The notes under the pieces were generated by a model. That model saw nothing but the letters and a program-made list of their open reading frames with translations. It was not told the DNA's origin and did not search any database. The position numbers were made by a program, and so were the translations under genes. Positions 2,659 to 63,493 of a DNA stretch of 64,000 bases are shown here, in pieces. The stretch's first letter is position 1, and each line of letters begins with the position of its first letter. The stretch comes from Siphonodentalium dalli (taxonomy: Eukaryota > Mollusca > Scaphopoda > Gadilida > Siphonodentaliidae), in assembly GCA_032622095.1 (NCBI GenBank), contig CP136068.1, positions 137,647,989 to 137,711,988 of the forward strand. Direction: 5' to 3'.

Positions 2659-2689
2659 GTTTTAAAACCGCCCGTTTCGAAATTTCGAT

Positions 2690-5263
2690 ATGAGTGCGCG
2701 CGGTAGGCCCAGAACTACGGGTAAATCTCACAACAAAGAGAGTATAACATACAGTTCTAAAAGAAAAAAACAAGATGATGATGGTAGTCAAAAAATAATA
2801 TCATTTTTTAAAGTGGCACAACATGTTGAAAATGAAAGTCAACATGGAACCAGCTGCAATGCTGACGTTCTCACTGAACCAGAAGTAGTCCCAGAGGACT
2901 TGGACCAAACTCCAAAGGTTCCTTCTACTCCATCTGCTTCTACTACCTCTACATCACAGGTTCCTTCCACTTCTGAAACTAAGACTTCTTCTGTTGGCCT
3001 GAGACAGCGAGATATCAAAGCTATATTAGAACAATACCCTACATTTGTCTATTCCAAGGATGGGTTTTTATGTCTTATTTGTTCAAAATATTGTACAGTC
3101 GCAGACAAAAATCATCCGCAGAATGCTGCTTTCACTGTAACAGGATCAGACCTTGGATGCCACCCTAAAGCGAGACTTGAAGACCACCTAAAGTCAGCTA
3201 TTCACAAACGTTGCAAAGAAAATGAAACCACTGCTCTTCGGTTAATCCATCAAGGGGGTTTGGCTGGTGTTTTTGACAAATCACATATTGACATTGTCAC
3301 AAACAATCGTCAGTATTTATCACACCTAATAAAAACACTGGACTATCATGTACACCATTACATTGCAAAATCCCAAATTGCAGACTTTGTAAAGTTTCTT
3401 GTTGACTTACAAGAACCAATCACAACAGATTTCTTCTCCAGAAATAAAGGATATGGGCAGTACATTTCTGGTCCATCAGTCGAAGAACTATTGACTGCCT
3501 ATAATAAATTCTGCATTCACAAAACACGTGAATCAATGGAGCGTGGAAAACATTTTACTTTCTATTGTGATGATTCAGAAGCATATAATGATCATGACGA
3601 GATGATCAGCTTTCTGTCATGGGTGGACCCAAGCAAGATATTAGGAACGTTTGTACCCCATGTTTTCCTTAACATTAAATCTGTTACTAATCATGATAGT
3701 GATGACCATGTCATTGATGCAAATTCTTACTTTGATGCACCCAGTCTTTATGCTGCAATGAAGGAGGTTATTGCCGGTGAGGAGTTTGCAATGGAGAACA
3801 TTTGCTTCATGTGTTTTGACGGTACAAATACAATGTCTGGAAAAACAGGTGGTGTTCAGGCATTGTGGCGCAATGATTTTCCAAAAGCCATCTACATCAA
3901 TTGCCGTAATCACCGTTTAGCTTTAGTTTTTGTTCATTTGAAAAAAGCATATCCATTAATGAGCAGCTACGATGAACTTCTATATGACATATATGAAGCT
4001 ATCGATGCAAGTAAGGTTGCTAAAACAGTTTTCAACCAAATTCAATCTATAAATGGAGAGAAAACATTTCAAATGTTGAGGGCATGTTTGACGCGGTGGT
4101 TGTCACATTTCAAAGCTTCGAAGAGAGTTTGCGACAGGTATGAAGATTTATTGGTAACATTTGCAAATATGTTTCAAAGGAAAGGCGACACCAAGTATCT
4201 CGGCATTAACCAGCGTCTGACTGATCCGGAAAATGTGTGTACTCTTTTATTGATGACGGACATCCTACATCACACAAACATTCTCTCCACTATGTTACAG
4301 GCTACGACTGCCAACATCCCACAAGTTGTTGAGTATGTGAATGTGTTGAATGGTTATTTGAAGGGTCTACCAAATATGTCTCAGGGTTATTATTCTAAAG
4401 TGGATACCTACATCCAAAAAGCTAAATCATACCGCTCTGAGAGCTCAGGTTATGTTCGCGGAACCAGAAGTGGAGTGAGGGTAGTAGAATTTGACAGAGT
4501 AAAATATGAGACTGACTTCGTCTTACCATTTTGTCAATCACTGATCAATGAGCTCAATGCTGCATTCTATGATGATCAAAGTACCATTGTCACTAGCTTG
4601 TTGGAATTATTCATCAAACCGATAAATCATGCTCATGAACTTGACAACGAACTGATAGAGATGCACCTGAGCAGACTTCTTGAGTTTTATGACTTACAGC
4701 CTAAGACTGATGGTGTAAGCGGCACTGACTGTGAGGCTGAGCAAATTATATTTCTTGGTGAATTAGTAAAGGAATACAATATGTTATACACTCATATCCA
4801 ACTTATGAAACAAAAATGGGATTGTGAGAAGAAGGAGCAAATAAAAAATTTGCAGAAAAGATTAGACTTTAAGACAGCAGAGTCCCTTAAGAAATATGTG
4901 CCCCAGTATGAAATGAATAAAATAGAGGAAAGGATTGACATGCTAAAAAAAAAACGTACTACACCAGGAGATGTACTCGAAGTACTGTGTGAGGATAATT
5001 TGGCTGAAACAGCTTACATGAACATGAGCTTTTTCCTTAATATATGTTGTGTTCTACCTATCTCTAATGCCATTTCCGAGAGAGGTTTCAGCCAAATGCA
5101 ATTGTTACTGGGCAAACATCAGGGATCGACAAAAGATGAGACTCTTGATAAACTGATTAGAATACGTATGTTTCCACTCCCTTTGGACAACACATCCATC
5201 AATGAAATTATAAATATATTTGACAAGGACTTCAACAAAAACAGACATATTAAGTTACATTAG
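2690..5263 (+). CDS. hAT-family transposase, 857 aa, intact
   Basis: A single uninterrupted frame of 857 codons with no intron needed. Residues 1-100 are a basic then Ser/Thr/Pro-rich low-complexity tail. Residues 126-175 form a BED/TTF-like zinc finger: Cys128, Cys131, His166, His172. The RNase H-like core follows, with an acidic pair in FYCDDSEAYN (294-295), the second-strand motif CFDGTNTMSG (Asp377) and CRNHRLALV (about 405-413), then LTRWLSHF. The C-terminal end has the hAT dimerisation signature ISERGFSQMQLLL. The overall form resembles the ZNF862/KIAA1586-like group of hAT transposases. The ATG at 2690 is the first in frame and lies just after a TATA-like box. Poly(A) signals AATAAA occur at 5588 and 5672. 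The surrounding inverted repeats and target duplication argue for a mobile transposase rather than a domesticated host gene. Confidence 0.88.
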   Translation: MSARGRPRTTGKSHNKESITYSSKRKKQDDDGSQKIISFFKVAQHVENESQHGTSCNADVLTEPEVVPEDLDQTPKVPSTPSASTTSTSQVPSTSETKTSSVGLRQRDIKAILEQYPTFVYSKDGFLCLICSKYCTVADKNHPQNAAFTVTGSDLGCHPKARLEDHLKSAIHKRCKENETTALRLIHQGGLAGVFDKSHIDIVTNNRQYLSHLIKTLDYHVHHYIAKSQIADFVKFLVDLQEPITTDFFSRNKGYGQYISGPSVEELLTAYNKFCIHKTRESMERGKHFTFYCDDSEAYNDHDEMISFLSWVDPSKILGTFVPHVFLNIKSVTNHDSDDHVIDANSYFDAPSLYAAMKEVIAGEEFAMENICFMCFDGTNTMSGKTGGVQALWRNDFPKAIYINCRNHRLALVFVHLKKAYPLMSSYDELLYDIYEAIDASKVAKTVFNQIQSINGEKTFQMLRACLTRWLSHFKASKRVCDRYEDLLVTFANMFQRKGDTKYLGINQRLTDPENVCTLLLMTDILHHTNILSTMLQATTANIPQVVEYVNVLNGYLKGLPNMSQGYYSKVDTYIQKAKSYRSESSGYVRGTRSGVRVVEFDRVKYETDFVLPFCQSLINELNAAFYDDQSTIVTSLLELFIKPINHAHELDNELIEMHLSRLLEFYDLQPKTDGVSGTDCEAEQIIFLGELVKEYNMLYTHIQLMKQKWDCEKKEQIKNLQKRLDFKTAESLKKYVPQYEMNKIEERIDMLKKKRTTPGDVLEVLCEDNLAETAYMNMSFFLNICCVLPISNAISERGFSQMQLLLGKHQGSTKDETLDKLIRIRMFPLPLDNTSINEIINIFDKDFNKNRHIKLH

Positions 5264-17340: not shown

Positions 17341-17730
17341 TTAACCCTTTACCCAACAAACCGGCCAAAACCGGCCAAATAAAGCTTCAACAGCCTAAAA
17401 TATCTTCGGTCTGTCTCAATAGAACCATACAAATATGGATATCATTGGAACCGGCTCATTGACCACATTGTGATGGTTACAGTTATGCCCTGTGCCAATG
17501 CATTCTCTTATATATGCGAGTCGACCATAGGTCGCCTCGCATATATAAGAGAATGCATTGGCCTAAAAAAAATCTTTTTTTACCATTTTTTCTTACATTC
17601 TTTAACAATTTTATAATTTTTAATGTGTTAAGCCAATGCATTCTCTTATATATGCGAGGCGACCTATGGTCGACTCGCATATATAAGAGAATGCATTGGC
17701 ACAGGGCCCTTCTGTTGGGTAAAGGGTTAA
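17341..17730 (+). mobile_element. TTAA short element, family A, complete reference copy
   Basis: Complete 390 bp including both TTAA copies (17341-17344, 17727-17730). Ends are CCCTTTACCCAACA and TGTTGGGTAAAGGG. Order inside: a left tail rich in CCGGCCAAA, the motif AATATCTTCGGTCTGTCTC, hairpin cassette 1 (about 17491-17563), AT-rich spacer with TTACATTCTTTAACAATTT, and hairpin cassette 2 inverted (about 17632-17700). The ends and TTAA target fit piggyBac-type elements. Non-coding. Confidence 0.85.
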
Positions 17731-18389: not shown

Positions 18390-18540
18390 CAAGCCTTGAA
18401 ATAGGGTGTCTGTCATTTGTAGAATGAGGTCCCCAGAGGGTGAATTTAGTGATGCTACCCCGCATAGCGGGCTAGCATCGCCAAATTCACCCTCTTGGAA
18501 CCTCATTCTGCAAATGACAGACACCCTATTTCAAGGCTTT
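18390..18540. mobile_element. hAT-type foldback element, family H, with 8-bp duplication
   Basis: The 151-bp hairpin begins CAAGCCTTGAAATAGGGTGT and mirrors itself at the right end. GCCATTAT is duplicated exactly at 18382-18389 and 18541-18548, the 8-bp signature of hAT. Arms carry GAATGAGGTCCCCAGAGGG. It lies 89 bases after the second PHLDB exon. Confidence 0.8.
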
Positions 18541-19139: not shown

Positions 19140-19540
19140 TTAACCCTTTACCCAACAAGCCGGCCAAAACCGGTCAAATAAAGCTGCAACAGCCTAAAAT
19201 ATCTTCGGTCTATCTCAATAGAACCATACAAATATGGATATCATTGGAACCGGCTCCTTGACCACATTGTGATAGTTACAGTTATACCCTGTGCCAATGC
19301 ATTCTCTTATATATGCGAGTCGACCATAGGTCACCTCGCATATATAAGAGAATGCATTGGCCTAAAAAAAAATCTTTTTTTAACACTTTTCACCATTTTT
19401 TCTTACATTCTTTAACAATTTTATAATTTTTAATGTGTTAAGCCAATGCATTCTCTTATATATGCGAGGCGACCTATGGTCGACTCGCATATATAAGAGA
19501 ATGCATTGGCACAGGGCCCTTCTGTTGGGTAAAGGGTTAA
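19140..19540 (+). mobile_element. TTAA short element, family A
   Basis: Complete copy with TTAA at both ends, CCCTTTACCCAACA termini and two hairpin cassettes. Very similar to 17341-17730, with scattered substitutions such as ACCTCGC in the first cassette. Confidence 0.83.
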
Positions 19541-20115: not shown

Positions 20116-20494
20116 TTAACCCTTTACCCAACAGAAGGGCCCTGTGCCAATGCATTCTCTTATATATGCGAGTCGACCATAGGTCGCCTCGCATATATAA
20201 GAGAATGCATTGGCTTAACACATTAAAAATTATAAAATTGTTAAAGAATGTAAGAAAAAAGATTTTTTTTAGGCCAATGCATTCTCTTATATATGCGAGG
20301 CGACCTATGGTCGACTCGCATATATAAGAGAATGCATTGGCACAGGGCATAACTGTAACTATCACAATGTGGCCAAGGAGCCGGTTCCAATGATATCCAT
20401 ATTTGTATGGTTTTATTGAGACAGACCGAAGATATTTTAGGCTGTTGAAGCTTTATTTGGCCGGTTTTGGCCGGTTTGTTGGGTAAAGGGTTAA
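20116..20494 (-). mobile_element. TTAA short element, family A, inserted in the minisatellite
   Basis: Complete copy in reverse orientation to 17341-17730. Both sides keep the array unit: ATGGG before the first TTAA and GCGACTTGTATGATTTG after the second. It therefore entered the TTAA of a repeat unit. Confidence 0.83.
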
Positions 20495-21194
20495 GCGACT
20501 TGTATGATTTGATTAAGCACACATTCGATCATGCTATGGGTTAAGCGACTTGTATGATTTTATTAAGCATGCATTCAATCCTGCTATGGGTTAAGTGACT
20601 TGTATGGTTTGATTAAGCATGCATTGGATCCTGTTATGGGTTAAGCAACTTGTATGATTTAATTAAGCATGCATTCGATCCTGCTATGGGTTAAGCGACT
20701 TGTATGTTATGATTAAGTAAGTATTCGATTTAATTATGGGTTAAGCGACTTGAATGATTTAATTAAGCATGCATTGGAACCTGCTATGGGTTAAGCAACT
20801 TGCATGATTTGATTAGGCACACATTCGAGTCTGCTATGGGTTAAGTGACTTGTATGATTTGATTAAGCACACATTGGAGTCTGCTGTGGGTTAAGTGACT
20901 TGTATAATTTGATTAAGCACACATTCGATCATGCTATGGGTTAAGTGACTTGTATGTTTTGATTAAGCACACATTCAATCATGCTATGGGTTAAGTGACT
21001 TGTATGTTATGATTAAGCACGCATTTAATCATGCTATGGGTTAAGTGACTTGTATGTTATGATTAAGCACACATTCGATCATGCTATGGGTTAAGTGACT
21101 TGTATGTTATGATTAAGCACACATTTGATCCTGCTATGGGTTAAGTGACTTGTATGTTATGATTAAGCACACATTCGATCATGCTATGGGTTAA
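20491..21194 (+). repeat. 50-bp minisatellite array
   Basis: About 14 consecutive units with a 50-bp period; consensus TTAAGTGACTTGTATG(A/T)T, then (A/T)TGATTAAGCACACATTCG, then ATCATGCTATGGG. Every unit offers one TTAA. Degenerate units continue beyond the inserted element, at 21451-21720. Confidence 0.85.
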
Positions 21195-21454
21195 ACCTTT
21201 CATGACGGGAGCTGCCCTGGTGCAGCAATAAATACCCTGTGCCAGTGCATTCTCTTATATAAGCAAGTCTCCCATGGAGAGCCTCACATATATAAGAGAA
21301 TGCACTGGCTTACAAGGTCAAGGTAAATATTGTTAGGCCAATGTATTCTCTTATATATGCAAGGCTCCCTATGGGAGACTCGCATATACAAGAGAATGCA
21401 TTGATACAGGGTTTTTGCAAACTTACAGGAAAGCTCCAGTCATGGAAGGGTTAA
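21191..21454. mobile_element. TTAA element family B, inserted in the minisatellite
   Basis: Left end TTAAACCTTTCATGACGGGA, right end CTCCAGTCATGGAAGGGTTAA (given as CTCCAGTCATGG plus AAGGGTTAA). Two hairpin cassettes with the CTCCC/GGGAG inner stem flank AAGGTCAAGGTAAATATTG. The array unit is interrupted exactly at its TTAA. Confidence 0.75.
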
Positions 21455-21995: not shown

Positions 21996-22243
21996 TTAAC
22001 TCTTCCATGAAATTTTGTGAAAACCCTGTGCCAATGCATTCTCTTATATATGTGAGTCTCCCATAGGTAGCCTTGCATTTATAAGAGAATGCATTGGCCT
22101 AATAATATTTACCTTGACCTTGTAAGCTAGTGCATTTTTTTATATATGCGAGGCTCCCTGGGAGACTCGTATATATAAGAGAATGCACTGGCACATGATC
22201 TTTAATGCTGCACCAGCGCGGCTCCCGTCATGAAAGGGTTTAA
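21996..22243. mobile_element. TTAA element family B
   Basis: TTAA at 21996-21999 and 22240-22243. Two cassettes of the CTCCC/GGGAG type surround AATATTTACCTTGACCTTG. The right end is GGCTCCCGTCATGAAAGGG. The left end has lost part of the usual tail. Confidence 0.68.
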
Positions 22244-36702: not shown

Positions 36703-37102
36703 TTAACCCTTTACCCAACAGAAGGGCCCTGTGCCAATGCATTCTCTTATATATGCGAGTCGACCATAGGTCGCCTCGCATATATAAGAGAATGCATTGG
36801 CTTAACACATTCAAAATTATAAAATTGTTAAAGAATGTAAGAAAAAATGGTAAAAAGTGTTAAAAAAAGATTTTTTTTAGGCCAATGCATTCTCTTATAT
36901 ATGCGAGGCGACCTATGGTCGACTCGCATATATAAGAGAATGCATTGGCACATGGCATAACTGTAACTATCACAATGTGGTCAAGGAGCCGGTTCCAATG
37001 ATATCCATATTTGTATGGTTCTATTGAGACAGACCGAAGATATTTTAGGCTGTTGAAGCTTTATTTGGCCGGTTTTGGCCGTTTTGTTGGGTAAAGGGTT
37101 AA
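36703..37102 (-). mobile_element. TTAA short element, family A, with paralogous empty site
   Basis: Complete copy, TTAA at both ends. The flanks GTGTGGCCTA and GTAAGCGAGTCC correspond to GTGTGGTCTATTAAGTGAGTCC in duplicate copy 1, where a single TTAA (35859-35862) is intact. Confidence 0.86.
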
Positions 37103-39509: not shown

Positions 39510-40008
39510 TTAACCCTTTCTAGAACAATGTATTCTCCAATCCAGTTATAAAAGTATATATTGGTATGGTTTATTTTTCATCTGGAGGTGAAAAATAAGT
39601 AAATTTTTATTGGGAGGGAAATGTTCAGGTAATAAGTTCAACAAACTATCTATTGAACTTATTATCTGAACATTTCCAAAGGGATAACTCAGGCCTGCAG
39701 GTTTCAAAATTATGTGCATCCTCTTTTACGTTCGCCAGTTTTGTGCTTAGGTAACCCATACTATAAGTTAGCAGGAGAGTTACACAAACTGTGTAATATA
39801 ATTGAACTACCGTAATATATTTGAATGTCTCATTTTTGGGACTTGATTGAGCAAAAATAAGGTGAGAATTAGTTATCGCGAGACCTGCATTTATAAAACT
39901 TTGGCACGACCTGTTTTTCGTTCACAGCATTTTCATTTTAGATAACCTCCAGGCGAACTGAACGGTTGTTCGCCTTAAATTTGCAGGCCTGTAACTAGAA
40001 TGGGTTAA
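39510..40008. mobile_element. TTAA element family F, longer form
   Basis: Left TTAA at 39510-39513 and end CCCTTTCTAGAACAATG. Central hairpin GGAAATGTTCAGGTAATAAG with its complement. The right TTAA is the one used by the next element, and a few dozen bases before it are missing compared with 43849-44370. Confidence 0.62.
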
Positions 40009-40403
40009 CCCTTTACCCAACAGAAGGGCCCTGTGCCAATGCATTCTCTTATATATGCGAGTCGACCATAGGTCGCCTCGCATATATAAGAGAATGCATT
40101 GGCTTAACACATTAAAAATTATAAAATTGTTAAAGAATGTAAGAAAAAATGGTAAAAAGTTTTTAAAAAAGATTTTTTTTAGGCCAATGCATTCTCTTAT
40201 ATATGCGAGGCGACCTATGGTCGACTCGCATATATAAGAGAATGCATTGGCACAGGGCATAACTGTAACCATCACAATGTGGTCAATGAGCCAGTTCCAA
40301 TGATATCCATATTTGTATGGTTCTATTGAGACAGACCGAAGATATTTTAGGCTGTTGAAGCTTTATTGGCCGGTTTTGGCCGGTTTGTTGGGTAAAGGGT
40401 TAA
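40005..40403 (-). mobile_element. TTAA short element, family A, with empty site in the duplicate
   Basis: Complete copy. Flanks AATGGG and TTTGTATGGGGGTGGGG match the uninterrupted AATGGGTTAATTTGTATGGG at 44361-44380 in segment B copy 2, which has a single TTAA. Confidence 0.86.
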
Positions 40404-41901: not shown

Positions 41902-42096
41902 AACACTAATTCTCTTTTATATGCGAGTCCTGAAATATATAAGAGAATGCATTGGCTTACATTTGTCAAGGTAAATATTGTTAGGCATATGTATTCCCTT
42001 ATATATGCTCACTATGGGAGACTCGCATATATAAGAGAATGTATTGGTGCAGGGTTTTCGCAAAATTTCAGGAAGCTACATTCATGGAAGAGTTAA
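41902..42096. mobile_element. TTAA family B remnant
   Basis: Two shortened cassettes around GTCAAGGTAAATATTG, then AGCTACATTCATGGAAGAG and TTAA at 42093-42096. The same remnant is at 46040-46230 in segment B copy 2, so it predates the duplication. Confidence 0.58.
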
Positions 42097-46039: not shown

Positions 46040-46230
46040 CTAATTCTCTTTTATATGCGAGTCCTGAAATATATAAGAGAATGCATTGGCTTACATTTGT
46101 CAAGGTAAATATTGTTAGGCATATGTATTCCCTTATATATGCTCACTATGGGAGACTCGCATATATAAGAGAATGTATTGGTACAGGGTTTTCGCAAAAT
46201 TTCAGGAAGCTACATTCATGGAAGAGTTAA
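46040..46230. mobile_element. TTAA family B remnant, segment B copy 2
   Basis: Counterpart of 41902-42096, nearly identical, ending in TTAA at 46227-46230. Confidence 0.57.
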
Positions 46231-47427: not shown

Positions 47428-47924
47428 CAGTAATGCCCCGAGAGCTTTCCGATGAATGGCAACAAGCCATATTTTCGAATAAATCCTGAGAAGTTACCCA
47501 TAATTCTGCTGTGGTTAACCCTTTACCCAACAAAACAAAACGGCCAAAACCAGCCAAATAAAGCTTCAACAGCCTAAAATATCTTCGGTCTGTCTCAATA
47601 GAACCATACAAATATGGATATCATTGGAACCGGCTCCTTGACCACATTGTGTTAGTTTCAGTTATGCCCTGTGCCAATGCATTCTCTTATATATGCAAGT
47701 CGACCATAGGTCGCCTCGCATATATAAGAGAATGCATTGGCCTAAAAAAAAACATTTTTCTTACATTCTTTAACAATTTTATAATTTTTAATGCGTTAAG
47801 CCAATGCATTCTCTTATATATGCGAGGCGACCTATGGTCGACTCACATATATAAGAGAATGCATTGGCACAGGGCCTTTCTGTTGGGTAAAGGGTTAAGG
47901 AGTCGATTACTTAGAGCATTACTG
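47428..47924. mobile_element. Family G foldback split by a TTAA element
   Basis: Ends CAGTAATGCCCCG and GAGCATTACTG with TA outside. The left arm is shortened. The host motif CTGTGGTTAAGGAGTCG, intact in other G copies, is interrupted exactly at TTAA by the family A element at 47515-47898. Confidence 0.76.
47515..47898 (+). mobile_element. TTAA short element, family A, nested in family G
   Basis: TTAA at both ends, CCCTTTACCCAACA termini, two cassettes and a shortened spacer (AAAAAACATTTTTCTTAC). Small duplication CAAAACAAAACGG near the left end. Confidence 0.84.
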
Positions 47925-51185: not shown

Positions 51186-51707
51186 TCAAGAACCTGTTGA
51201 ACAGAACCCCACTGTACGATGAAGATAAAGAATCAATGCCCTCTTAGGGTCAAGCTTTTCACATTGTGGAAAACTAGGAATAAATATCGACTGCTTTATG
51301 TGGTTTGGACGATCCTGTTTAGACAAACCAGTTCTTCGAAACAGAATACCTTGTGGTTGAATGTTTATATAACCTTCTCCAGTATTCAGAGCCTGTAAGT
51401 CACTACATCGTTGAAAGGAGGTAACAGCCACCAACATAACAGACTTTAAAGTCATCAGTCTTAATGAAACATCCTCCATTGGTTCGAAAGGTGGCATCTG
51501 TAGGCATTCTAAAATGATAGAAAGATCCCATGATGGTAATAAATGTCGGATTGGAGGTCTTTCATTAAAAACACCTTTCAACATTCTGATGACCCTAGGA
51601 TGTTGACCTATGGGATGTCCTTCAATATTCGGTAAAATTGCTGACATCATAGATCGATACCCAGTAATAGTTGAGTAAGCTAATCTTTTGTCAAATAAGG
51701 AGGACAA
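51186..51707 (-). pseudogene. DIRS tyrosine recombinase, truncated
   Basis: The 173-codon frame covers the core-binding part (FDKRLAYSTITGYRSMMSAI) and the first catalytic block, TSFQRCSDLQALN, with the conserved Arg. The later His-x-x-Arg and Tyr blocks are absent: the frame ends at CSTGS and then a stop, and the DNA beyond does not encode them in an obvious way. The enzyme joins circular retroelement DNA to the chromosome without leaving target duplications. It follows the linker frame at 51726 with a frameshift between them. Confidence 0.8.
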
Positions 51708-51725
51708 AAAAATTTAAACAGACTG

Positions 51726-52193
51726 TCAGAGAAGCTGTATAGGGATCAATTTGTTCTCTATGACACCAGCGACTGAATTGTCCAAACTTACAACCATAGT
51801 CTTTTCTGGTACCTGGCCTGCGGGAGGAAGATAATAATCTTCGAGCCCCTGTCCAAATGCCTGCTGTTTCATACTGTCAGTCGACAGAAGCCAGCCCATC
51901 AAGTTCAGATGTTCTGGATTCGAGTGCACTATCATTACTTGCCCCTGTGTCAGAAAATTCGGACACGGAGGCAACAAACTGGTGGCGCCAATAGTAATTG
52001 AAGCAATCGGGGATACCAACACCTTCGAGGCCAACATGGTGCTACCAAAAGTATGGTGCAATGAAACAGGATCATGTGAGATAATACTCTCGTTACGAGA
52101 GGGAATGGTGGAAATGCATATGCGAACAGGTTGGTCCAAGGTATTGATAACGCATCCCGGACTTTGGCTTGTAGGTGGTACGTCCAAGCACAA
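51726..52193 (-). pseudogene. DIRS linker between RNase H and recombinase
   Basis: The useful part of this frame is its second half, from PNFLTQGQVMIVHSNPEHLN, which continues the RNase H/linker protein whose earlier part is in another frame (VAPCWPRRCWYPRLLQLLL, ending at 51950). This linker, often discussed as methyltransferase-like in DIRS elements, is broken here by at least one frameshift. Confidence 0.65.
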
Positions 52194-52618
52194 AAACTCT
52201 CGGTCTGAGTGTTCTGAGCTGTTGCAAACAGATCTAATTCCGGTTGACCCAACCTTTTGAATAGTCGTTGTACTATCTCACGATTGAGACACCAATCGTT
52301 CTGATCTAACTTGTGTCGACTTAGAAAGTCCGCCAACACATTGTTCTGCCCTCGAATATGGATCGCTTTCAACATGATATTGTTCTCGATCCATAATTTC
52401 TGTGTCAATTTCCACGGATTTGGAGACTTCGTGCCCCCTTGTTTGTTTATATACTGACTGACTGTTGTGTTGTCTGTCTGTATCAAAACATTTCTCCCTT
52501 TGATCTCCAATAAAAAATGAGACACTGTCCGAAGGACAGCTTCTAGCTCCAGACAATTTATTTGCGCTAACCTTTCCAGAGGGGTCCAAAGTCCCTGTAC
52601 CACACAATTGTTCATCAC
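51950..52618 (-). pseudogene. DIRS RNase H domain
   Basis: Motifs in order are CLELEAVLR (catalytic Glu), VLIQTDNTTVSQYINKQGG (catalytic Asp region), AIHIRGQNNVLADFLSRH (Asp near the C-terminal helix), then the DIRS-typical LGQPELDLFATAQN. The domain removes RNA from RNA:DNA hybrids during reverse transcription. This is the best preserved part of the element; the frame loses register near 51990. Confidence 0.82.
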
Positions 52619-52800
52619 CCCTCCCCAACCATGTGTCTTGGCTGCGTCCGTGGTGATTGTGATTTCGGTCGAGATTGGGGTGAGTGATCAGCCTCTCAAA
52701 ATGTTCCGATCCTGTAACCACCATGTTAGGTGACTTATGAGATCCCCAGTCAAAGGAATGCTGTGGGTTAACTCCATTCATAATGGAGACCAATACTGTT

Positions 52801-53289
52801 TCAGATGCAACTGAAATGAAAAATAGAGCATTTGGTATGAGATCTAATAGGGACGCAATTATCTCTAACAGTACCAAGTACTGTCGGGCACTGTTTTGGT
52901 CCTTTCATTAGACTTAACGTGATTTTCTTCAGCGTTAACACTCGTTCCTCTGAAGGATAAACCATGCCTTGCATGAGATTGAACCGGCAGCCCAGATAAT
53001 TGACCTGTTGGCTGATCATTAATTGTGACTTTTCTGAGTTGATCAGAAACCCTAGGCTTGTCAAAATATTGATAACGAGTCTGCGATCTGTGATCAATTG
53101 AGTCCGGTTGGAATTCACTACAAACCAATCATCTATACCCCTCATACGCAGGTAAGCTGCGACCACTGAGGTGATTATTGTGAACACCCGAGGCGACATT
53201 GTTGGACCGAAACATAGGGCTCGAAATTGATAAGTTTTCTTTTGAAATTGAAACCTCAGATATTTTCGATTGTGTTCTTCGATTTTCAC
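52801..53289 (-). pseudogene. DIRS reverse transcriptase, palm and thumb part
   Basis: YLRFQFQKKTYQFRALCFGP, then TMSPRVFT and the active-site block reading MRGIDDWFVVNS. The Asp-Asp-Trp remains, but the expected residues before it, including the Tyr of Tyr-x-Asp-Asp, are missing: a small deletion has joined MRGI directly to DDW. It continues to LINSEKSQL and VNYLGCRFN. In frame with the preceding piece, from which a single TGA codon (53305-53307) separates it. Confidence 0.82.
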
Positions 53290-53304
53290 ATGGAAATATG
53301 CGTC

Positions 53305-53790
53305 TCATAGGTCTAGCGTGAAAGACTGGTCTCCTTTGAGCAGAAGCTGAAGAACTGACTGAACTGTGTCCATTTTGAAGTGCTTTTTCACAATTTTAGT
53401 GGTTTGACATTTAGAACTGGCTTCCATTTCCCATTTTTCTTTGGCACAAGAAAAAGAGTGCTGTAAAAACCGTCGAGAGCCATATGTTTTGGAACCATTT
53501 CTATGACATTTTTGATTTTCTATCTCCTGTCGAATCAAATTTATTTGATGGGGAGGAACCTTGGTCTCTTTGACCCCCATAAATTTTGGATGAGTGTGGA
53601 ACTCGAAAACAAAACCTTCCATTATTGTTTGCAACACCCATTGATCGGTTGTCACTTGATGGCAGAATTTCGAAAAATGTGACAACCGACCTCCCACAGG
53701 CACGTTTGGTAAAGGATGGACGATACTTACAAGATAGTCATTGTGAATCGTATCTGCCTCCTCTAGCTCTGCCTCGACCACGGATGGCAT
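53305..53790 (-). pseudogene. DIRS reverse transcriptase, N-terminal part
   Basis: GGRLSHFSKFCHQVTTDQWV and ILQTIMEGF-type strings are typical of the DIRS RT entry. VKKHFKMDTVQSVLQLL and SFTLDL lead to the first catalytic Asp, where an in-frame TGA interrupts before DAYFHVKI. Between residues of about 75 and 125 the protein runs in another frame (GFYSTLFLVPKKNGKW can be read there), so two compensating frameshifts exist. Confidence 0.78.
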
Positions 53791-54180
53791 TCCCGTTCTT
53801 ATTATCGTATCCAGGTGTCGTTTTGGGAATCCGAAAGGAATCGCGCTGAAAGCCGCGATCTATTAAAGCTGGCAGATGCACTTGGCCGACTCTCGGAAGC
53901 ACATGGTCTGTCCAGTGGTTTGTTTATCAAAAATTTCTTCGCTTCCGGTCGGTCCACGGAAGAAGAGTTGTCCTTCCTCTTACGCTTATTGACATAAGGC
54001 TTGGAACATTCAGGTAAAAGCTAGCTCTTGAACATGTTTGCATCGTTCTCTACGAGCCTTCAGCAGGGGCCCCAGACCCTCACCAAAAACTCCTCCGAAG
54101 TGAAAAGGAGATTTTCCATATCGCCCGTAATGTCCGACTCCCACCAATCGGTATCACTCAATGCACACATACGGCGTATC

Positions 54181-54834
54181 TTATGCAGAAACGCGCCGGT
54201 TCTGCCTGCTGGAAGAAATTTCAAAAACAGTTTGGATGTTAGCAATAGCCTCCTCTTTATTCACATCCTCTGTTTCCAAACAAGTTAACAACTTCGCCAA
54301 AGCTTGCTGCGAATATAGTTGTGTAATGATGCCCATGCGAGCCGCTTGCTGCCCTCTGTATGCCGATTGTTCAATCATCTTACATGGCTGGGAATGCAGT
54401 GATGTGGACTTAGAACCGGAACGTCCCTTCGACCCACCTTTAGTTCCATATTTCTTGGAAATGGCCTCCCCGACCAAAGGATCCAATGTTGGAACACTGA
54501 GGAAATTCTCTGTCTCATCGTCGACAGGAAATCTATCAAATGTCTCTTCAGAGAAAGCAGACATAAACTTTGGAGAATCAGAATGATAACTCGACTCCAA
54601 TAAAGCTCGTTGAGCTTTGTCAATAGCCAACCCTTCCTTTTTGTTGCTATCTTTGACACGGAAACTGTCCTTGCCGAACAATTCCGCCATACTTTTGGTC
54701 AGAGTAAAGTCTTTTACATTCTCTGTCTCCACCCCATTGTTGGACTCCAGATCCGACAAATATGAGTCTACATCCCTCGCGTGAATGCTCATAAGGTCCG
54801 AGTCCGAGTCTCTATCCCCTACCCTCGACCTCAC
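54181..54834 (-). pseudogene. DIRS Gag-like protein, main part
   Basis: The 217-codon frame is acidic and Ser-rich at its start (VGDRDSDSDLMSIHARDVDS), with a later basic patch GGSKGRSGSKSTS and a helical tail LTCLETEDVNKEEAIANIQT. It matches the position and general make-up of DIRS ORF1. No zinc knuckle seen. Confidence 0.6.
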
Positions 54835-54895
54835 ATGTCAGGGTAATGGAGAAGGTGACACACTAGATTGACCAACGTTGTCATTTCGTTGCACA

Positions 54896-57399: not shown

Positions 57400-57773
57400 C
57401 ACTCTTATATATGCGAGTCAACCATAGGTTGCCTCGCATATATAAGAGAATGCATTGGCCTAACAAATTTTATATTATTATAATTGTTAAAAATGTAAAA
57501 AAAAAAATTACAAAAATTATAATTTAAAAAAAAATAATGTAAGAAATGATGATACAAAATTATTAAAGTTGTTAAAGAATGTAAGAATGATAAAAATGAT
57601 AAAATTGTTAAAGAATATAAGAAAAAAATATAAATATTTATATAAAATTGTTAGGCCAATGCATTCTCTTATATATGCACAGCGACTTATGGCCGACTCG
57701 CATATATAAGAGAATGCATTGGCAAAGGGTGTTTAATGTTGCATGTGCGCAGTTCCAATCATGAAAGGGTTAA
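57400..57773. mobile_element. TTAA element family B, left end lost, third inner-stem type
   Basis: The first cassette (about 57403-57460) has inner stem CAACC/GGTTG, a third paired version of the stem. A long A/T spacer is followed by a decayed second cassette and the end CCAATCATGAAAGGG plus TTAA (57770-57773). Confidence 0.65.
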
Positions 57774-57869
57774 TAGGTTTGTTAATATGGTGCCAGTGCA
57801 GAAGGATAAAACAAGGGGCACAGCTATCCTTCTGCAATGGCACAAGTGCCGTATCAACAAACTCATTAA
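57770..57869. mobile_element. 100-bp TTAA foldback abutting the previous element
   Basis: TTAA at 57770-57773 (shared) and 57866-57869. Ends TAGGTTTGTT and AACAAACTCA, arms GTGCCAGTGCAGAAGGATA and complement. A shorter relative stands in the same position at 60410-60469. Confidence 0.6.
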
Positions 57870-63093: not shown

Positions 63094-63493
63094 TTAACCC
63101 TTTACCCAACAGAACGGCCCTGTGCCAATGCATTCTCTTATATATGCGAGTCGACCATAGGTCGCCTCGCATATATAAGAGAATGCATTGGCTTAACACA
63201 TTAAAAATTATAAAATTGTTAAAGAATGTAAGAAAAAATGGTAAAAAGTTTTTAAAAAAGATTTTTTTTAGGCCAATGCATTCTCTTATATATGCGAGGC
63301 GACCTATGGTCGACTCGCATATATAAGAGAATGCATTGGCACAGGGCATAACTGTAACTATCACAATGTGGTCAAGGAGCCGGTTCCAATGATATCCATA
63401 TTTGTATGGTTCTATTGAGACAGACCGAAGATATTTTAGGCTGTTGAAGCTGTATTTGGCTGGTTTTGGCCGGTTTGTTGGGTAAAGGGTTAA
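63094..63493 (-). mobile_element. TTAA short element, family A, complete
   Basis: TTAA at 63094-63097 and 63490-63493. Two cassettes, both with the CGACC/GGTCG inner stem. Nearly the same sequence as the copy at 40005-40403, including the GTTTTTAAAAAAGATTTTTT spacer. Confidence 0.84.

Follow-up and report, generated by a model that had tools for sequence, protein, structure and literature searches.

Introduction

CMITEs of corals, which are piggyBac/TTAA MITEs (PMC2872659), are the closest known kind of element to the one described here. According to that source, these short TTAA elements are non-coding and have CCCTTT tips, families with differing tips have an internal region in common, tandem arrays occur, and autonomous piggyBac elements are present in the same genome. 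In piggyBac itself, a transposase dimer uses two C-terminal domains to bind palindromes in the ends (PMC11707139). As described there, the Trichoplusia piggyBac and piggyBat ends combine a TTAA target with palindromes inside the tips; these are about 14–19 bp long and adjoin the tip, and in piggyBac they are identical in both ends at unequal distances from the tip. Kolobok elements and T2-MITEs also have a TTAA target site and high-copy MITEs, with AG/RR given as the Kolobok terminal letters (PMC6004289). For the coordinated change of stems, the relevant described case is template-switch mutation in RNA, in which several adjacent stem pairs change together (PMC8794818, available part).

The window analysed here is a 64,000-nucleotide stretch of the Siphonodentalium dalli genome (C8:137647989–137711988; 2.23 Gb, nine contigs). 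It contains many copies of an element that has the listed CMITE features. Unlike in the CMITEs as described (PMC2872659), two 69-bp palindromes, inverted relative to each other, make up the shared region, and the element is 2–4 times longer and far more numerous. Local alignment of the hairpin with the printed 60-base CMITE consensus was no better than with shuffles (p 0.40 and 0.44). Like those of piggyBac, the palindromes lie closer to one tip than to the other (30 against about 150 bp in the young element); they differ in being much longer, and their binding by a transposase is putative. The element begins with CCC and not with the Kolobok letters. In contrast to the template-switch RNA stems in the available part of PMC8794818, no loop inversion was seen and a mismatch neighbouring the stem was left in place. 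Library searches on piggyBac/TTAA MITEs, palindromes, hairpins, and compensatory change brought up the CMITE paper and, among the entries listed, no earlier description of these sequences. The element is ordinary in kind and unusual in its twin palindromes and its numbers, and its high copy number allows the question of coordinated stem change to be answered by counting.

Our explanation, to which we give as a whole a probability of about 75%, is that the stem versions of these hairpins reflect inherited subfamily differences together with the decay of facing CpGs in a TTAA MITE with twin hairpins, and not an ongoing repair of the stem.

Structure and abundance of the element

The sequence-only reading had drawn attention to positions 17491–17700 as a hairpin of roughly 70 bp present more than 30 times in the window, and this was borne out. 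The region consists of two 69-bp hairpins, the left one at 17494–17562 (plus strand) with the inner stem CGACC/GGTCG and the right one at 17632–17700 (minus strand), and the two are reverse complements. Their DNA folds had energies of −35.4 and −37.8 kcal/mol (z −15.6 and −16.0), far beyond chance. Both outer arms were found within 4 mismatches at 33 places of the window and one arm only at 8 more; profile search detected 41 hairpin places.

The two hairpins belong to a full young element of 390 bp, TTAA to TTAA, at 17341–17730 (plus strand), which starts with TTAACCCTTTACCCAACA and ends with its reverse complement. Alignment of seven copies delimited the left terminal inverted repeat at 17341–17358 (plus strand) and the right one at 17713–17730 (minus strand), both including the TTAA target site. 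An A+T-rich linker of variable length (17563–17631, plus strand) separates the hairpins. Beside the inner stem of the left hairpin lies a T·C mismatch, with T at 17521 (plus strand) and its partner C at 17535, which persists in the young and the old subfamilies. Seven full copies of the young element (TTAACCCTTTACCCAACA...TGTTGGGTAAAGGGTTAA, 379–401 bp) were present in the window in both orientations and could be aligned end to end; the other six are located at 19140–19540 and 47515–47898 on the plus strand and at 20116–20494, 36703–37102, 40005–40403, and 63094–63493 on the minus strand. The copy at 20116–20494 is inserted at TTAA in a tandem array of 50-bp units starting GGGTTAAG (20488–21199).

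The normal element carries two hairpins in inverted orientation. In 40 sampled young copies, the distance from hairpin to tip was unequal, approximately 30–31 bp on one side and about 150 bp on the other. Two accepted hairpins were present in 29 of these slices, one in 8, and none in 3; in several of them the hairpin had been lost through deletions inside the palindrome. Folded as one strand, the whole element reached −209.8 kcal/mol (z −24.5), with the left and right hairpins pairing with each other.

Genome-wide, the exact 20-letter arm occurred 312,319 times (156,235 + 156,084) and the exact young tip 91,648 times (45,803 + 45,845), with no matches to the reversed patterns, and the inner 33-mer had 114,889 exact copies. 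Exact patterns register only copies with all other letters intact, and a change inherited by many copies is scored many times in such counts (loci L091 and L103, for example, have common flanks). From the arm, tip, and 33-mer counts, young elements therefore number tens of thousands. The first 10 Mb of C1 supplied most of the sampled elements.

An older subfamily with different tips

Copies in the window and 35 slices taken at old-type tips revealed an older relative of about 250 bp, which has CTCCC/GGGAG hairpins and a linker different from that of the young element. Its tip, TTAACCCTT[C/T]CATGAC[T/G]GGAGC, had 16,286 exact copies genome-wide (reversed control 0). As read from the sequence, such elements occupy 21191–21454 (minus strand; CTCCC/GGGAG hairpins and CATGAC tips) and 21996–22243 (plus strand), and the window has old-type fragments besides. 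The left hairpin consensuses of the two subfamilies were identical at 64 of 69 positions; the tips had only TTAACCCTT and the CCCTGT preceding the hairpin in common. The internal hairpins are thus better conserved between the families than the tips, as in CMITEs. CGACC hairpins were also found in some old-tipped elements (L043, L044, and 57402–57775); the type of hairpin is therefore not tied strictly to the type of tip. The sole CAACC/GGTTG hairpin of the window (57402–57465, plus strand) has a truncated outer arm and belongs to an element with an old-type tip at its end.

Tandem arrays of hairpin-bearing or tip-derived units were observed at L047, L057, L051, L060, and L061. At L047 and L057, hairpin-bearing units recur in tandem within single elements, about every 79 and 96 bp. 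Minisatellite arrays of old-type tips, with spacings often in multiples of 37 bp, were present at C1:3257437–3273395, L051, L060, and L061. Within the window, the hairpin remnants at 41909–42054 and 46043–46188 match, share their flanks, and lie about 4.1 kb apart, which corresponds to a local direct duplication.

Probable assignment to piggyBac-type elements

TTAA was found at both ends of all seven full copies. For three of them (20116, 36703, and 47515), flanks joined at a single TTAA could be aligned to uninserted repeats: array units for the first, a related repeat for the second, and copies of a host repeat for the third. The empty site displayed for 47515 reads TTAT, and the alignments of 20116 and 36703 have small gaps close to the junction; the remaining four full copies yielded no usable empty site. 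The terminal inverted repeats CCCTTTACCCAACA at both ends agree with the CC[C/T]T motif. In the list of open reading frames, the frames crossing the element are interpreted as read-through of the hairpins. Judged by its TTAA sites, CCCTTT tips, and short size, the element is probably a short, non-coding, high-copy MITE of the piggyBac (TTAA) type, an assignment that forms part of the explanation rated above.

The genome yielded 128 matches to the piggyBac transposase domain PF13843. We read 50 of these loci (L001–L030 and L111–L130) and extended five (L131–L135). The ten top-scoring loci, which were the first choice, gave no partner of the MITE. TTAAC[C/T]CTTT occurred at both ends of four piggyBac elements (L023; L111 with L132; L119 with L133; L015 with L135), and the tip of L025 agreed with the old MITE tip at 19 of 22 letters. 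Among the 50 loci, neither the exact young tip nor a young tip within 3 mismatches was present, the closest being L111 and L119, each with 4 mismatches of 18. Hairpin arms with up to 4 mismatches were likewise not found inside the tips of the 50 loci; one arm was located at 1424 of L132, beyond its tip at 1861. Short palindromes near the tips exceeded those in shuffles (p 0.03 or less) in 4 of 11 piggyBac tips, with no such excess in four MITE tips (p 0.10–0.63). Fourteen of the piggyBac matches with a 562-codon frame had an in-frame TGA, a stop common to many copies.

Inheritance of the stem versions

The three inner-stem versions named in the sequence-only reading (CGACC/GGTCG, CTCCC/GGGAG, and CAACC/GGTTG) all exist. 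Its statement that both sides change together, with few unpaired copies, did not hold: among the window's 41 places, the inner stem was gapped in 3 and had all five pairs in 24, and 14 (of 38 ungapped) had at least one broken pair. Two of three copies quoted as CTCCC/GGGAG differ from this description, the one at 22057 being CTCCC/GGTAG and the one at 21270 pairing only in a shifted register.

A wider sample comprised 187 hairpin places from the window and loci L031–L110, including five loci chosen for CAACC/GGTTG (L066–L070) and some tandem duplicates. At the two diagnostic pairs, 92 places had GA/TC (young), 33 had TC/GA (old), and none was half-changed; the remaining 62 had gaps or other letters. 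The difference between CGACC/GGTCG and CTCCC/GGGAG is the difference between young and old subfamilies, and the two sides of each main version co-occur in every copy because they were inherited from the source element. The subfamily consensuses have paired differences at stem pairs 5/65, 30/40, and 31/39 and a one-sided difference at position 62; the states at pair 5/65 and position 62 are those of the majority and are not fixed. Paired change thus did happen in the source elements. After removal of L066–L070, five tandem or segmental duplicates, gapped rows, and ungrouped rows, all five inner pairs were intact in 82 of 95 young rows and 9 of 42 old rows.

The T·C mismatch (hairpin positions 28 and 42) serves as a test of conversion, because conversion between arms would remove it. 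Of 147 oriented rows from both subfamilies, 135 retained it, and in none of the 147 was the loop inverted from ATA to TAT. Genome-wide, copies with the mismatch resolved to T·A, G·C, or G·A numbered 736 (115,625 − 114,889), against 579 (115,468 − 114,889) in a matched control that scored a T-to-G and a C-to-A change elsewhere in the 33-mer; a single tandem array on C1 accounts for at least 10 of the control copies. With a ratio of 1.27 (z 4.3), the excess equals about 0.14% of copies; it is real on these counts but small, and it leaves room for rare conversion events.

The sampled rows agreed with these counts at lower power. Young rows had one (the copy at 57402) against 0.30 expected, and old rows had 18 against 14.1 expected, with 9–18 in slid controls. 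Watson–Crick doubles at facing sites numbered 10 in old rows, compared to 0–6 in twelve slid controls, which on its face speaks for pairing. They were composed of five changes of C24–G46 to T–A (facing CpGs), four of the left/right variant pair 5/65, and one other, and several of them occurred in related rows.

Changes at facing CpGs

Within a stem, every CpG has another CpG opposite it. In the 33-mer, position 12 is opposite position 22, and each belongs to a CpG site. In addition to the 114,889 unchanged copies, 1,175 carried G12A only, 1,315 C22T only, and 30 both changes (CAACC/GGTTG); the paired state, presented earlier as one of the coordinated versions, is the rare one genome-wide. Thirty doubles compare with 13.4 expected under independence (odds ratio 2.23, 1.55–3.22). 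As a control we used C27T, a change in a CpG that is not opposite position 12: it occurred singly in 1,091 copies and together with G12A in 25, against 11.2 expected (odds ratio 2.24, 1.50–3.34). The ratio of the two odds ratios was 1.00 (0.58–1.70). Facing CpGs are therefore no more coordinated than non-facing ones, and the twofold excess in both pairs is the pattern given by copies of mixed age. Transfer between the arms in excess of the control could have affected at most about 0.44% of one-sided CpG hits.

These counts fit an origin of CAACC/GGTTG by independent decay of two facing CpGs. The CpG observed/expected ratio of the window was 0.64, with CA and TG raised, and CpG methylation would fit as the driver of this decay. 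After insertion, the arms diverge without detectable coordination.

Discussion

For the movement of this twin-hairpin TTAA MITE, the following mechanism is proposed. A piggyBac-type transposase acting in trans would mobilise the element at TTAA, and the two palindromes, set about 30 to 150 bp inward of the tips, may form a cis-acting module. Their most likely partner would be a transposase dimer, and such binding would account for their having outlasted the changed tips and linker. The earlier guess that the hairpins are recognised by a transposase receives indirect support from their position inside a TTAA element and from the dimer-bound palindromes of piggyBac ends (PMC11707139, available part), and the hairpins may be regarded as putative recognition sites. 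For the two adjacent base pairs switched in the source lineage, one template-switch event would be the simplest route. A bolder version, which we consider doubtful, is that the twin palindrome is a portable cis-module passed intact between differently tipped TTAA elements, enabling different piggyBac-type transposases to move them, and that single template switches in the source lineage rewrote its stem (two adjacent pairs, both arms) and left the T·C mismatch.

Selection for pairing of the folded DNA or RNA, for instance as a small-RNA precursor, would make the compensatory changes a reflection of function. The very stable folds of the hairpins and of the whole element, as well as the three paired consensus differences, agree with such selection; the one-sided difference at position 62 and the retained mismatch do not, at least one of the two hairpins is not intact in 11 of 40 young slices, and the whole window had no match to a known RNA family at the Rfam gathering threshold. 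We consider this explanation unlikely. The earlier proposal that the fold matters is not needed for the copies, while for the source elements the evidence is divided between the three paired differences and the unpaired one. A still lower probability is given to continuing conversion or template switching between arms that would re-symmetrise the palindrome in the copies, the least credible of the alternatives. Template switching is described as able to restore stems and to generate compensatory changes of several bases (PMC8794818), two adjacent pairs do differ jointly between the subfamilies, and resolved mismatches were 1.27 times as frequent as the control. Against it stand the mismatch kept in nearly all rows, the loop that was never inverted, the broken inner pairs in the window, and the two-sided CpG changes, which did not exceed the unpaired control. 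Ongoing conversion between arms is rare at most.

TTAA superfamilies other than piggyBac include Sola3, and the element might instead belong to that superfamily or to Kolobok. This is very improbable, only slightly less so than continuing conversion. Kolobok likewise duplicates TTAA, but its ends as described start with AG or RR (PMC6004289, available part), and these termini set it apart from an element starting with CCCTTT. That start fits the piggyBac motif CC[C/T]T (PMC2872659, available part), and the piggyBac elements of the S. dalli genome have the same first bases.

With inheritance and CpG decay as the preferred reading, a single genome holding more than 100,000 nearly identical hairpins provides a sharp test of palindrome evolution. 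Facing CpG pairs in stems imitate compensatory mutation, which calls for caution in taking covariation among repeats as evidence of RNA structure. The counts also bound conversion between the arms of short palindromes at the fraction of one-sided CpG hits given above. A conserved twin palindrome accompanied by changing tips repeats the unexplained pattern of CMITEs and offers a candidate role for their shared internal part.

Other features of the window were noted in passing. At 18391–18539 lies a further, nearly perfect palindrome, whose 73-nt arms flank a centre of 3 nt. An open frame of 865 codons at 2666–5263 had no Pfam match at E 0.01. Interrupted frames on the minus strand of 51186–54837 match a reverse transcriptase (PF00078) and, below threshold, RNase H; they may represent a DIRS-like retrotransposon.
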